A DNA stretch of 64,000 bases from Rhodotorula mucilaginosa. Its lineage: Eukaryota; Basidiomycota; Microbotryomycetes; Sporidiobolales; Sporidiobolaceae. Shown here piece by piece: positions 53,653 to 61,035 of this stretch. Location of the stretch: positions 806,001 through 870,000 of the forward strand of contig CP137872.1 in the NCBI GenBank assembly GCA_034406715.1. The letters are read 5' to 3'. Within the stretch, counting starts at the first letter, position 1; each line of letters opens with the position of its first letter. The position numbers were made by a program, and so were the translations under genes. The notes beneath the pieces are model-generated. The model saw only the letters and a list, made by a program, of their open reading frames with translations, was not told the origin of the DNA and did no database searches.

Positions 53653-56600
53653 TCAGACATTGACGGCGGCCGGAGCAATGTTGCTCATGACACTCGTCAG
53701 GTTGGCGAGCGCCGTCTGACCGGTCGGGTCCACCTTGACGCGGTCGCACTCGGGCAGGCAGATATCGGGTCGGTCCAGCAACGAAACAAGCGAAGCCGCC
53801 ATGAGAGCTGCGGCGCAAAGAAGTCAAGCGTGAGCATCTTAGCGCCCGCAGAGAGAGAGAGAGTGAAGAACGGACTCACGGCCGACCGGCGTCCGGAAAT
53901 GCTCCAAGCGGGCAATGATACTCGTCACGATTTGGGTCAAGTGTCGCACCTCGTCCTCGAGCGTCGGGCTCGAAGCCATACCCGGATGCCCGGATGAGGG
54001 AGGGTACGTCGGCGGCATGCCCTTGAATTGACGGATCGCCATCTGCCGCAGGTAAGTGCGCGCGGCGACGGTCCAGCAAAAGGAGAGGAACGGCGGGATT
54101 TGCCGGGGATGGAAAGAAGCGTCTGTGCAGACGAGATGAGAGGGAGGCGAATGGTCATCAGGATTTGCGCGTCGACGGTCAGCGGACGGAAAGCAACCGG
54201 ACGTACTGTTCAACACCTGCATATTCTGTAAGATGCTATTCGCCGCCTCGAGACACTTGAGCATACTCGGGTCGTTGTGCTCGCTCGTGCAGAACCGCTC
54301 GTGCAGGATGATGACGCTCGTCGCGACGAGTGACGGGCACAAGAACGCTTCGGGCTCGAGCAGCGCGACGAGCTGCGCGGGGGCTTTGCGACCAAAGTTC
54401 TCGAGCGCCGCTTCGAGCTTGGTAAAGGCGGGACTGCGGCGCCGACACCACCGCCGAGGTAAGCACGTATTGCAAGAGGTTGAGAAAGGGGCTGACAGAG
54501 TACGCACGAGGATCGGATCTTGGGGAACTCGGAAGGGTGCAGAGCTGATCTTTCGGGCGTAGCATTGGCCAAAGCGGTTGTGCCTATCGGACAGAGAACC
54601 GGATCAATCTCAAAGCTGCCAAACACGTCCGCAGAGAGGAACCGAAACTCACGGCTGACAAAGGTGCACACCCGGTTCAGCAGCACCGTCACCTTGAGGT
54701 TGATCTGCACGAGCCGGACGAGGTGCGGCGGATTCGTGACGAAGAAGCTCGGCGAATGTAGGTAGAGCGCCTCGCGCGCCAACGGGTCGTCCTGCAGTCG
54801 TATCGTCAGACGGGGCCGCGGGAAAGATAAAGCGGACGGAACAGGGGGATGAAGCTCACCCCGACTGGACCTGCCGCGGGGACTAGCGTAGTGATATCGC
54901 GCTCGTCGATGCAGCAAGCCCAACCCTTTCCATTCTCCGACGCGAATCAGCCCGACGTCCATCCGCTTATTGATTCAAGCGTCAGCACTCACCGTCGCCG
55001 CAGCCGAGAACGTTTCGACCGTGTAAGCGAACCACCAGGTGACCGACCGTTCCCGCGCTTCCTCCTCGTCCTGCGGGGGCGGTAACGCAGTACGGTGCGC
55101 GAGGAACGAAGACAGCGGGAGATGGTTCGGGAGGAAGATGTTGTGATTCAGGCCGAGCGAGGTGCAGATCCGGACGGCGATCGAGGTATCGATATAGGCG
55201 CGCGAGAAGCTGCGGGGAGGCGAGATTGCAGCCTGTTGAACGGGCATAGAGAAATCCAGGTCAACGAAGAGAGGACTTACCGGCCATGGTACAGGTTCAG
55301 ACAAGCAAAGAGGACAGCGGCTTGAGCCACTTGGAGGAGATTCCGCTCGGTGCGGAAGCCGAGCGGCAAGAGGTACTGCACGACGCAGAACTCGGTCAGC
55401 ATGGTTCCCAAACATTCTAAGCGCGACAGAACGATTTACCTCTGCCAGATCAGCATGGAAGACGGCCGGGCTCTGCCCCTCCGTCCAGTACCTCGCCTCT
55501 CCTTCCCAAGCATCCAGTCCCGCCAAATCCGTCGCCGTCGCAACCATCGCGTGCAGCAAGCACTCGGCCGGGTACTCTGGATGATCAGGCGGGCGTGCAA
55601 ACGCCGCCATGAAGCGCCTCCGGTTGATCAGGTCGATCGCCTCGTGCGGGTAATCGAAAAAGATGTTGACGAGCCGCGAGAGGGTCGTGTAGGAAGGGAG
55701 GCGAGGTCCGCTCGGCAAGATGGCGGCGGCGGGAGCAGTTAGGTCGTTGCTCATGTGCGCGGGGGCGGGCAGCAATTGCGGAGGATCTGAAAACGGGACG
55801 GGCCGCGGCGGACCGGACGAGCTGCTCGCGTCGGCGGTCGGAGGACCCCCCATCGGGGCGTAGGTCGGACTGGCGACAAATTGAGATGACATGATATGGC
55901 TGCCCGGATGGGAGAACGGAGGAGGCGGCGCTGCCGAAACAGGCGGGTTGTGCGGATGCGCTGCAAACGGCGGGTAGCCACCATTCCCCGACGCCGGTGT
56001 CGAATCTGCTCTGAACGGCGGGCCTTGCGACGTCGATTCAAAGCCGAACGCGCCGAACGGCGACCCGAGCGATCCGTTGTCCGACGCGAACGGGAACCGA
56101 GGTCCGAGGGCGGGTGCGGTCGCAGGATCGTAGAACGCTTGACCGCCCGCCGAGGCATGCCGAGGTCGCGGAGTTCGCTCAGCTGAGAGGCCCTGCATGC
56201 CCGTAGCCCCGGAAGTCGTGGCCGTGTGCGGTCTCGGTTGGTCGAGGTCGAGCTGCTGCGGGAACGGCAACATGGGCGGGTGCGGACCCTGAGCCGCGAC
56301 TGCCGCCGATTGGGCGTTGGCCTCGGCGCGGGCTTCGGCTTCGGCGAGTTTGCGCTCGAGGGTCTGGATCTTGGCTTCCAGGGCGTAGACTTTGCCGCCG
56401 CCGACGGGTTTCCGGCGTTCTTCCTCGGACGGGAAGTCGCACACGACGAGCGAAGGGTCTCTGCGAGTTCGCCTGGTCAACGCCGCTTCGTATGTGTCCC
56501 CTTTGCGCGACTCACTGTCCGAGGCGTATTGCGGTCGATATACAGACTCCGCATTGCGGCTGAACGCCGTCACCTGTGAGCGGGAGGTGTCAGGCCATGA

Positions 56601-56984
56601 CCGGCTGGGCGAAGGAGCGCCGTCCTTCTTGCTCACACCTGCGGAGGGCGCTAGGTCAGCATCTCTGTGCTCGCTGTGACGATGCTCTGGACACGTACTT
56701 GACTTTGCGTTTGCGGCAAGTGAGGCAAGCCTGTAACCCGGTCGAGCAAGATTAGCGCCGGTGCAAAGCGCCGAGGCGGGAGAAAGGGGGCAACTGACTC
56801 GACCGCGGCCTATGCCTCTCGTGTGTTTCCTCTTGCCCTTGCTCCCTTCTGGTTCGGCTGAAGGCGAAGCGCTGTGGTCGTCCTCTTGACCGGCGGCGCC
56901 ATTCGAGTGCACGTCGGCGGCGTAGTGCCCGCCCGTGGGCGAAGAGATCGAGCCCGCCAAGGACGGTCTCCGATCTGGTGGCAT
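53653..56984 (-). CDS. Zn2Cys6 fungal-specific transcription factor
   Basis: The protein starts MPPDRRPSLAGSISSPTGGH with a disordered N-terminus and a basic KGKRKHTRGIGRGR. A zinc cluster follows, assembled over several exons: ACLTCRKRKVK (exon 56699-56730), then CDGVQPQCGVC, and a last Cys in LVVCDFPSEEERRK. A linker and a coiled-coil dimerisation helix come next (VYALEAKIQTLERKLAEAEA), then a Pro/Ser-rich region. The middle homology region begins about LPSYTTLSRLVNIFFDYPHE and contains FARPPDHPEYPAECLLHAMV, YWTEGQSPAVFHADLAE and SFSRAYIDTSIAVRI. The C-terminus ends SVMSNIAPAAVNV. Joining the first two cluster exons in frame needs a 2-nt exon (GT at 56637-56638) or a recursive splice site. 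The cluster spacing between Cys5 and Cys6 is longer than usual. It is divergent from an SDR gene it may regulate. Confidence 0.85.
56637..56638 (-). other. Putative 2-nt microexon or recursive splice site
   Basis: On the - strand the bases read CTCCGCAG-GT-GTGAGC: a good acceptor, two bases and a good donor. Including GT between exon 56699-56730 (ending GTCAA) and the exon starting GTGACGG creates Lys-Cys-Asp-Gly, exactly the third zinc-cluster Cys. Skipping it gives an in-frame stop. Confidence 0.5.
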
Positions 56985-57231: not shown

Positions 57232-58289
57232 ATGCCGGGAACGGTCTACAAGCCGAAAGCGGGAGACACGGCAGTCATCACCGGCGCCGGCTACGGCGGC
57301 ATCGGGTACGCCGTCGCCGAATTGCTCGCGAGTCGCTTCAAGGTGCACGTCGTCCTCGTCGACCGCGACCCGGACGCCCTCGAACAAGCGAGCAAAGCAC
57401 TCGTCATTGCCGGAATCCCCGAGAGCGACTTTGAGACCCGCCTCACGGACGTGAGCGACCCGGACGAGGTGTTGCAACTCGCCAATGCCGTCTACGAGCT
57501 ACACGGCAAAGTCGACTTTTTGCACCTCAATGCGGGCGTGAGTGCCAAAGTCAAAGCGTACGGGCAAGACATTGTCGACGAATGGCAAAACACGTTCGCC
57601 GTCAACCTGTTTGGAGTCGTCAACGCCACCTCGGCTTTCGTCGACCGCATGATCGCGCAGGTGCGTTTCCCCTGTCTCGGAGGTCACGCTGAAACGTCCC
57701 TGATTATACGAGAGAGCCTTTGGGCAAAGCTAACACCCCGGACTTGGCAGGACTCGCCCGCCGCCGTGGTCATCACCGGTTCCAAGCAGGGCATCACCAA
57801 CCCGCCCGGAACTTCTGCAGCCTACAACGCCTCCAAAGCCGTGAGTAGACCCGCTTGTCCCATTCTCAGAATTCAGCTTCTCTGACATTGAGAACTTGCA
57901 CGCGGATGCAGGCCGTCAAAACCCTCGCCGAAGCGCTCGCGCACCAACTCCTCTCCACCTCCGTCTCGGTCCACCTCCTCGTCCCAGGCTGGACCTGGAC
58001 CAAGCTCGCTTCCCCCGCCGGCGGGTCCCTCTCGGCCTTCTCCGCGGCTGACAAACCCGCCGAAGCGTGGTCCGCCGCCGAGGTCGCCGAAGAACTCTTG
58101 ACGAGGATGCAGCAGGGCGAGTTTTACATCATCTGCCCTGACGGAGCCGTCAACTGGGAGCTCGACAAGGCGAGGATGGAGTGGGGCTTGGGCGACGTGC
58201 TCGAAAAGAGGCCGCCGCTCAGCAGGTGGCACCCCGAGTGGGAAGAGCGACACCAGAAATGGGTCGAGGAGAAGCTTGCCCAGAAGTAG
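57232..58289 (+). CDS. Short-chain dehydrogenase/reductase (SDR)
   Basis: A classical SDR of about 298 residues in three exons (57232-57660, 57751-57840, 57912-58289). The Rossmann nucleotide motif is TGAGYGGIGYAVAE, with an acidic residue in VLVDRDPDAL after strand 2 that usually favours NAD(H). The LNAG motif replaces NNAG, active-site Ser is in VVITGSKQGI, and the catalytic YNASK lies at the end of exon 2 (Tyr-x-x-x-Lys). VPGWTWTKL follows as the post-catalytic Pro-Gly. The C-terminal extension PPLSRWHPEWEERHQKWVEE ends KLAQK. Substrate is unknown. Divergence from a Zn2Cys6 regulator suggests inducible expression. Confidence 0.92.
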
Positions 58290-58529
58290 TTGGCCTTTCG
58301 CTTGCATGAGAATGATTTTTGTACATACATGCCGTCCTTCGAGACTTGTTATGCGCGGAAGTGTCTCTGAAGATTGATTGCACAGTGTTTTGCGGAGGGA
58401 GGAGGACATTCGAGCCTGCAAGGCTATGGGAGCGGGAGAAAGCCCGACAGGGCATGTATGATAATGCTGGGTTTTTGGACGAGGGGGGAAAAGGGAAAGA
58501 AGGAGACATATCATCCACATGCCGCCTGG
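58290..58529. terminator. Convergent 3' ends
   Basis: A gap between the SDR gene and the CNNM gene that converges on it, with T-rich sequence near 58305-58330 consistent with polyadenylation. Confidence 0.35.
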
Positions 58530-61035
58530 TTACGGATCCGACGAGTCCTTCTTCCCATTCTTCAGCAACGGCGTCCGCTCGCTCTCTCCCCGCGTCCGAC
58601 TCGTATTCCTCGAACTAGGCCGAGACCCATTCGGGATCGGCGTGTTGACGCCGCTAAAGATGCGCCGTTCGGGGATGCCCCCGCCCCGAACGCGGACCTT
58701 GTCAAACCCGGACGTGACGTGGTGCTGCAGCGGCGGCATGACGGGCGTGTTCCGGCCGGCTTGGGCGGTACTCGCGCCAGTGTTGAGACCCGTGCTGGAA
58801 GAAGCGACGGTCGAGCTCGTGGTGTTGGCGCCGTTGCCGTTGCCGTTGCTGTTGCCGTTGTCTGTGACGTGGATCGCAGGACCGCCATCGATCGTGTTTT
58901 GTCTTCGTGCTTGCCGGCGACGCTCGATGACGCCTGGAGGGTACAAAGTCTCTCAGCTTTCGACTCTCCCCCCCGAGGAGGTCCACACCAGCGAAACTCA
59001 CCGGCAATCAGTGGTGCAAGTTTGCCTTCCTTGGCCGAACGGCGCGCCGGCGCACGGACGACTTTGGTCTTGGCGTGGATGTCCTGGAGAGCGAGCGGAG
59101 CGTCAGCTACGTGCCTATCGAAGCGCACGGGAAGCCAAACTTACGATGTACAGGTCGGTCTCGTCGACGATCTGGTTACACAGGGGCAAGAGTTCTAGCT
59201 CGGGTGGGATGAGATACGCACGCATCGGGACTCACCTCTTCACCGATCATCTCCTCGATGACGTCTTCGAGACTGACGACGCCGAGCGCGCCGCCCGGCT
59301 CGCCCGGAGTCTGGCCAGGTACGTAATGACAGTCAGCCTCCGCCCATCCTCTCGAGAGAGCGTTCCCTTGTGATAAGAGGAACCACAGGTCGCGCATCGT
59401 GTATTGAGAGAGGTCAGACTGACCCGCGACACGAGCAAGATATGCGAGCGACCCTGCTGGAAATAGTTGAGCACGTCGAGGCAAGTCGAGTCCGGACCGG
59501 TTTCGGGCAAGACTGAAAGCGCAAAGTCGCCGATTTGTCTGTGTACGCACCGAGTAGATGTCAGTGCCCCGTCCAGCCGAGCGCCCCGATTGAAAGTCAC
59601 TCACTGCTCGTCCTCCGGGTCGTACGAGATGAGCTGGAATACATGGAGAAAAGGTCAGTTTCGAAAGCGCAGGCGTGCTCTTGGCAGCTCCGCGCACCTT
59701 CTTGACAACTATGGCACGAGTTCAGTTAGTACTGACGCTTAGAATCATCCCGAGCGAGTAACGGGACTCACTGAGCATGCCCACAAAGTCAGTCGGGTTG
59801 CCCGGCGCATGGATGGGAATCCGACTGTGTCCCGATGCGAGGATCTGATCGACGACCGTCTGGCTCAACTTCGTGTCGACCGGAAGCGAGTAAATGTCTT
59901 CGAGCGGAGTCATGATCTGCGCGACGCTCTTGTCTCCCAGTTCGAGCACCGAGGAGATGATGGTCACTTCGTCGTCGTTGAGCGTCTCTTCGCCGAACTG
60001 CCGATGCAGGCCGACAAAGGTCTTGAGTTCGGCCTTCTTGTACGTGACGCCCTGTTCTTCGCCGAGGAGACGGTCGAGGAGTTTGGCGATCGGGTATGCG
60101 ATCGGGAACTCGATATACATTAGGGCGAGGACGAAAGGCGCGGCGACGGCGCCGATGCGGAGTCCGTACCGTGCGCAGATCGCTGCGGACCCTCAGTCCG
60201 TCAGTACGGGATTGAATGGTACACGCCCAGCCGCGATATACCCACACTGCGGGATGATTTCACCAAAGATGACGATGAGAGTCGTCGAGAGGATGACGGC
60301 TCCGAGGCCGCCGCCGAGAATACTGTCGAGGAAGATGGCTGAGAGCAAGGGTTACATTGTGTCAGTCCTATGCCAGGTAGACTGAAGACCAGGCAGAGCG
60401 AACTCACGAAGAGATTCGTTGACGACGACGTTGGAAAGCAAGAGGACCACGAGCACCCAGTGTCGACCTCTTTCCAGCAAGCGCATGACCTTGGTCGCGT
60501 CTTTCCGTTCCTGTTCATCTCCCGAGGTCGACAACACTATGTGAATTCGGGGGGAAAGTCAGCTCTCAGTCCGTGAAGACGGCTCCTGGTGATCGAGAAA
60601 TGACTGACCTTGGAGATTGACCAAGTCGAGGCCCATCAACCCGAGGGTCAGACCGGCAAAGACACCTCCGAGCAGCACCAACATTCCCGACAAGCCCAGT
60701 TTCCACCAGAACGCTGTTCCGTGGCAGCAGTGCCATCGTCGAGAAGTCGGAGGAAGAGCGATTCGTGGCGCGGAGATTCCAGACCGCATAGTCAGCTCAC
60801 TCGGCCTGTCCTTCCTGGACCCCGCCTGAGAGCACCTACCTGATGAGCCTGGCGGTGTCTCTGGGTCGCTATGCCCCGCGATCGCGATCCCTTCGTCGCC
60901 GAATCCATTTGAAGTGATCAAGACGGCGGCAGCAGCAGCCGTCGGCGCAGCGTAAGTGCGCACCAAGCGGGGCACGAGCACGGCGAGCTGAAGCAGACTC
61001 GCTGCACGCGGCGTACGCCATGCTTGGCTCGGCAT
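58530..61035 (-). CDS. CNNM/CorC-type membrane protein (Mam3-like, DUF21-CBS)
   Basis: Members of the CNNM family affect metal homeostasis (Mg, Mn); yeast Mam3 sits in the vacuole membrane. The N-terminus [16 protein letters not shown] has a signal/anchor. The DUF21 core has [34 protein letters not shown] (a conserved motif), [43 protein letters not shown], and [21 protein letters not shown] linker with [19 protein letters not shown] precedes the CBS pair ([44 protein letters not shown], and [19 protein letters not shown]). The cytoplasmic tail is Ser/Thr/Asn-rich with an Asn-Gly run and ends [10 protein letters not shown]. About ten introns. Start MPSQ at 61035 matches an N-terminal hydrophobic segment. 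Confidence 0.88.

Follow-up and report, generated by a model that had tools for sequence, protein, structure and literature searches.

The window analyzed here, a stretch of 64,000 nucleotides from contig CP137872.1 of the red yeast Rhodotorula mucilaginosa, carries on its minus strand a gene for a Zn2Cys6 regulator of the Fungal_trans (PF04082) type. In our gene model, the gene (53653..56984) extends from an ATG at 56984 to a stop codon at 53653 and contains 13 exons and 12 introns, which together encode a protein of 838 aa. Pfam detects PF04082 in this protein at 44.2 bits (cut-off 23), placing it in the Fungal_trans family, and PF00172 (Zn_clus) at 29.8 bits (cut-off 21). From DPSLVVC to its end, the model is identical at 731 of 746 aligned positions to P0001, a protein from the Sporidiobolales yeast Rhodotorula sp. 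CCFEE 5036, which suggests that the species of the window is closely related to this strain. Judged by eye, the divergent neighbor on the plus strand (57232-58288) resembles a short-chain dehydrogenase gene with two short introns, and an intron-rich gene on the minus strand (58500-60900) resembles one for a CNNM/CBS-domain transporter.

The six cysteines of the zinc cluster are C64, C67, C74, C81, C84, and C100 in the 838-aa model, and they follow the Zn2Cys6 pattern C-x2-C-x6-C-x6-C-x2-C plus a sixth cysteine. The Pfam match to PF00172 covers only profile positions 1-25 of 39. In Zn2Cys6 clusters, the fifth and sixth cysteines are usually separated by 6-8 residues; in the regulator, the spacing is 15 residues. 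Because of this wide gap and because the C100 column is invariant across the model and 22 homologues (22 of 26 homologues were taken into the alignment), the orthologous group has a C5-C6 spacing of its own (56544-56439, minus strand), which the Pfam profile fits in part. A phmmer comparison with PDB sequences matches the HAP1/CYP1 zinc cluster, with a best E value of 2e-4. The AlphaFold model of P0002, a homologue described below, has a mean pLDDT of 62.4 and a pTM of 0.55. Block means for its residues 71-110 are 77-87, and its helices include two short ones (69-74 and 86-94) and a long one (118-152).

The codons for the cluster are distributed over several exons of the minus strand. Exon 1 (56799..56984), which runs from the ATG to GRGR, agrees with P0001 and P0002 and is followed by intron 1 (56731..56798, 68 nt, GTCAGT..CTAAT..TACAG). 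Exon 2 (56699..56730, 32 nt) encodes ACLTCRKRKVK, including the first two cysteines, and ends with the AA of its last codon. Intron 2 (56639..56698, 60 nt, phase 2, GTACGT..CTGAC..CCGCAG) separates it from a putative exon of two nucleotides, GT (56637..56638), which would end the lysine codon AAG and start the codon TGT of the third cysteine. Intron 3 (56574..56636, 63 nt, phase 1, GTGAGC..CTGAC..CTCACAG) follows. Exon 4 (56516..56573, 58 nt), which reads (C)DGVQPQCGVCISTAIRLGQ, supplies the fourth and fifth cysteines, and P0002 has the same residues. Intron 4 (56461..56515, 55 nt, GTGAGT..CGCAG) leaves the junction LGQ-DPSLVVC, which matches P0002. A shorter intron 4 (56515-56473), with which the sixth cysteine is apparently missing, was rejected, as P0002 puts the acceptor at 56461. 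Exon 5 (55440..56460) begins with DPSLVVC, which holds the sixth cysteine, C100, and continues through a linker into a coiled coil. Farther along the gene, the modeled exon GWACCIDERDITTLVPAAGPVG (54925-54860, minus strand) keeps the frame near 54870.

The original prediction for this locus proposed that a 2-nt microexon, or a recursive splice site with the same product, may lie inside the zinc cluster, and the features on which it was built are all present on the minus strand. Exon 2 (56730-56699) ends in GTCAA ahead of GTACGTG, and the next recognizable cluster exon, which carries CDGVQPQCGVC, starts at 56573 with GTGACGGCG. Translation of the directly joined exons 2 and 4 affords ..RKRKVK and then a stop. 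Between them, at 56646-56631, an acceptor stands two bases before a donor in CTCCGCAG-GT-GTGAGC, the intervening GT being 56638-56637. When GT is inserted, the translation becomes AAG TGT GAC GGC (KCDG), and the third cysteine is regained.

The candidate exon has an acceptor and a donor of its own and lies between introns of normal length that each contain a branch site. The branch-site A of CTGAC is located 17 nt from the end of intron 2 and 16 nt from the end of intron 3. The other ten introns of the gene are 55-84 nt long, the donors of eight of them fit GTRNGY, and both GTGAGC and GTACGT recur among them as donors. CTNAY is present in seven of these ten introns and absent from three, so a branch site of this form is not a universal criterion.

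To enumerate splicing paths, we set a minimum intron length of 35 nt, allowed one or two GT/GC-AG introns, and followed every combination from exon 2 to the CGVC codons; a cluster was accepted when it read C-x2-C-x6-C-x5-12-C-x2-C. Four of the 1821 paths (155 with one intron and 1666 with two) yield a cluster. A single one of the four uses GT-AG introns throughout, namely the path with the 2-nt exon, which is therefore the sole route of this kind to an intact cluster. To assess chance, the 125-nt interval was dinucleotide-shuffled 50,000 times, its outer 6 and 5 bases being held fixed. A bare AG|NT|GT slot appears in 2.9% of the shuffles; when Y-AG and a GTRNGY donor are also required, the share is 0.10%. 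The whole arrangement, in which each half also contains a CTNAY branch site, appears in one of the 50,000 (0.002%).

The 16-mer CTCCGCAG-GT-GTGAGC has one occurrence in the window at up to two mismatches (0.07 expected), and a search of the whole genome (20.35 Mb, 19 contigs) with the interval returned one match, the interval itself. A scan of 264 kb of this genome on both strands, made up of the window that prompted the idea and 20 stretches of 10 kb, found 15 slots in which two model introns stand 0-40 nt apart. The slot of the regulator is the only one of at most 3 nt, and the other 14 are longer; the strict intron model of the scan passes 6 of the 12 introns of the regulator gene, so these numbers are undercounts.

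The product expected from the 2-nt exon, KCDGVQPQCGVCISTAIRLGQDPSLVVC, is found in the apparently spliced sequence of a relative. P0002 is an uninterrupted protein of 854 aa whose source contigs do not exceed 3752 nt, and it reads KCDGVQPQCGVC / CRKRKVKCDGVQPQCGVCISTAIRLGQDPSLVVC / RACLTCRKRKVKCDGVQPQCGVCISTAIRLGQDPSLVVCDF, exactly as predicted. P0002 shares an identical stretch of 343 aa with P0008, the longest contig of which is 6799 nt. Past these 343 aa, P0002 goes on as protein, whereas P0008 enters intron-like sequence; the two part a second time after SAAAT. Because P0002 is without introns, it most likely represents a translation from spliced RNA of the species of P0008. Its source tag, 'lgn', presumably denotes an assembly of public reads. 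The gene structure at the slot in P0002's own species is bracketed by relatives only; an uninterrupted exon there would read AG|GTGTGACGG. The matches of three protein searches, two of which scored only the approximately 8000 best candidates, included no transcript of the window's species.

Related red yeasts were compared through their translations. All four unspliced translations that span the slot (P0006, P0021, P0027, and P0029) are codon-compatible with it; being translations, they show compatibility only. The pattern YAGGTGTRNGY fits P0006 and P0027, and YAGGTGTGA fits P0029, at one place each; the P0029 fit depends on the assumption that its frame ends at TGA. P0021 is 49% identical to the search query and by eye is closest to R. 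taiwanensis P0005. YAGGTGTRNGY fits it at one place, bare AGGTGT at four, and AGGTGTGAG at none. The inferred counterparts of intron 2 would be 61 nt long in P0006, 62 nt in P0027, and 63 nt in P0029, and a 63-nt counterpart of intron 3 is compatible with P0006; in P0021, both introns would measure 68 nt. P0006 and P0021 also fit CAG|GTGACGG as the start of the next exon. The length and letters of intron 2 vary among the relatives, and a compatible slot is retained. Three further translations fall outside the slot, P0028 ending in intron 2 and P0008 and P0022 starting after the slot. Searches for the DNA of relatives, in collections not meant for fungi, returned 34 pattern stretches from genome contigs and 13 from viral contigs, none of them confirmed. 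In R. pacifica P0004, GRGR-SSDGVQPQCGVC (..GRGRSSDGV..) has no obvious fit to a CAG|GTGACGG acceptor. This hints that the acceptor ahead of this exon may differ in P0004, perhaps together with another microexon length.

These data suggest, with a probability of roughly 90%, that the zinc cluster is encoded across a 2-nt exon situated between ordinary introns of 60 and 63 nt. As read from the genome, the exon is likely used in the window's species. Each intron has a donor, a CTGAC branch site, and an acceptor to itself and could be removed by the spliceosome separately if short fungal introns are recognized across the intron, by intron definition. A paper on S. pombe cited in PMC11121469 names intron definition in its title. 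Because both introns of the slot are short and complete, each should be recognizable across itself. A two-nucleotide exon is too short for splicing factors to occupy both of its sides simultaneously, so the exon would be a direct test case for sequential, intron-defined splicing. The 2-nt spacing of AG and GT would thus have the two introns removed sequentially rather than at once. If intron 2 leaves first, the intermediate would read GTCAAGTGTGAGC, in which the +0 register leads to Lys-stop and the +2 register to the cluster. If intron 3 leaves first and intron 2 is kept, the intermediate would read CCGCAGGTGTGACGG. The mature mRNA would be GTCAA-GT-GTGACGGC, encoding V K C D G and leading to the six-cysteine cluster, and a cDNA over 56730-56516 is predicted to contain GTCAAGTGTGACGGC.

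In a recursive, or ratchet, splice site, an acceptor is directly followed by a donor. The CAG|GTGTGAG of the regulator is ratchet-like; unlike a ratchet, its productive register keeps two nucleotides. A recursive splice, the alternative mechanism of the original prediction, and a microexon yield the same product. The zero-length register fails, as the donor regenerated without added bases gives Lys-stop, and the locus is not a zero-length ratchet.

The same mRNA could also result, with no separate exon, from the excision of one 123-nt AC-AG intron, after GTCAAGT to CTCACAG. This is the sole single-gap solution that gives the exact product, but its AC-AG ends are non-standard and it would leave an internal acceptor, a donor, and two branch sites purposeless. 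The codons at the presumed donor of P0021 (V-S) moreover bar GTAC, which makes the AC-AG solution inapplicable there, and we regard it as very improbable. A GC donor behind the middle exon accounts for the other three of the four cluster-yielding paths, in which that exon is 20 nt (56638-56619), 28 nt (56638-56611), or 2 nt (56662-56661) long. Two of these routes give KCEQEGRR..., which is missing in P0002 and in the intact homologues aligned, whereas the third needs a 36-nt intron, below the 55-84 nt of the gene's other introns; splicing through a GC donor is very improbable. Direct joining to a stop, and the lack of a Pfam zinc cluster in 9 of 10 named Rhodotorula models, would be consistent with a chance GT slot in a pseudogene or in a sequence that had lost two bases in assembly. 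Against this highly unlikely origin, the remaining gene is intact (731/746 identical to P0001), and P0002 has the intact cluster. P0006, from another source, shares the read-through VSKKDG...SQVTAFSRNAE, and P0021 fits the CAG|GTGACGG start; the slot is therefore not a private error.

Sequential splicing across the 2-nt exon would be compatible with a frame switch, in which 0-nt and 2-nt donor registers behind one acceptor set the DNA-binding domain on or off. Such a switch would act by donor register and not by skipping. Its substrate after removal of intron 2 would be GTCAA-GTGTGAGC, with GTGAGC at +2 giving the cluster and GTGTGA at +0 giving Lys-stop. Both registers begin with GT, the +0 product ends after residue 73, and Xlr2 of Trichoderma virens, with a 20-nt microexon under glucose regulation in its Zn2Cys6 cluster, provides a precedent (PMC11121469). 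However, the sixth letter of GTGTGA is A, which is T or C in 10 of the 10 other donors of the gene; GTGAGC, in contrast, fits GTRNGY, as do eight of those ten. The switch also lacks a conserved alternative open frame, the frames of P0027, P0028, and P0029 ending within the interval, presumably at stops. When introns 1-4 are retained (56984-56461, minus strand), the frame continues without a stop into the remaining protein and encodes no cluster; the interval frame is also open in P0006 and, from exon 2 on, in P0021. A conserved zinc-less isoform produced by intron retention was rejected, because 13.6% of shuffles are likewise open with introns 1-4 retained and because the frames of P0027, P0028, and P0029 end. 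Sequential splicing accounts for the slot; a regulated switch, which we consider unlikely, is possible but unsupported.

The putative 2-nt exon of the regulator would represent an extreme, very small case of known ultra-short exons. The original prediction called exons of this size very rarely described. That is fair for fungi in the literature searched, but in plants, APC11 and VPS55 contain 1-nt microexons that have been verified by RNA-seq and RT-PCR (PMC8831610). Like these, the putative exon of the regulator would be an ultra-short exon between two introns that is missed by annotation and required for the frame. The APC11 and VPS55 microexons are conserved among relatives, and the slot of the regulator is codon-compatible in the translations of four relatives. 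The regulator differs from these 1-nt plant cases in that its exon is 2 nt long, belongs to a basidiomycete yeast, and is read from genome sequence. Xlr2 of T. virens, likewise a regulator of the PF04082 type, is alike in that its microexon lies within the Zn2Cys6 cluster and in that missing the microexon costs the annotated protein its DNA-binding domain; it differs in the length of the exon (20 nt), in its glucose-regulated inclusion, seen by RNA-seq, and in its phylum (PMC11121469).

Among basidiomycetous yeasts, the bglA genes are likewise intron-rich and contain very small exons, the minimum being 6 bp in Rhodotorula minuta and 5 bp in Sirobasidium magnum; three of four have introns of about 60 nt (PMC9142197). 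In contrast to the regulator, bglA, an unrelated enzyme gene, has no 2-nt exon in the table of that report (PMC9142197). A literature search over titles and abstract openings, covering few subscription journals, found no 2-nt fungal exon. If real, the exon of the regulator would be the smallest fungal exon in the literature compared, the next being those of 5-6 bp (PMC9142197). The locus also resembles [D] stwintrons, in which two short introns undergo obligatory successive removal (PMC9024468, PMC7138796, PMC6616335). In a stwintron, however, one intron splits a splicing element of the other, whereas in the regulator both donors are whole and two exonic bases stand between the introns. The internal intron does not interrupt the external donor, and the locus thus lies outside the [D] stwintrons.

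Two, or with P0020 three, more distant homologues point to an older arrangement. P0009 (R. araucariae) and P0019 (Rhodosporidiobolus lusitaniae) read through what is apparently one intron, possibly of 62 and 66 nt, respectively, the end of which is AG|GTGYGAYG. Neither P0009 nor P0019 contains an AGGTGTRNGY-compatible place upstream. P0020 resembles both, but has one further AGGTGTRNGY-compatible place and is therefore a weak example of a gene lacking the microexon. Because P0009 and P0019 have no slot upstream, the older state was probably a single intron ending in AG|GTGYGAC, and the 63-nt intron 3 was probably gained later, two bases inside an exon that formerly started AG|GTGYGACGG. Neither tandem duplication nor a repeated element was accepted as the source of intron 3, as its alignment scores are at the level of shuffles and the interval matches the genome only at itself. 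Its local alignment score was reached by 475 of 1000 shuffles for exon 4, 365 for intron 2, 192 for intron 1, 437 for intron 4, and 205 for exon 2.

Automatic annotation tends to miss exons this small. Among ten named Rhodotorula orthologue models (P0001, P0003, P0004, P0005, P0007, and P0009-P0013), Zn_clus is found at E 0.001 in one, P0007. The other nine (P0001, P0003-P0005, and P0009-P0013) are without a Pfam zinc cluster, and several of them break at or near the junction, each differently. Most public models of the group therefore miss the DNA-binding domain. For Rhodosporidiobolus (P0014-P0020), Zn_clus is present in two of seven models, P0014 and, by precomputed annotation, P0015; the Pfam rescan of this genus excluded P0015, P0016, and P0020. 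Some of the losses need no microexon, as P0009 looks like the product of a single retained intron.
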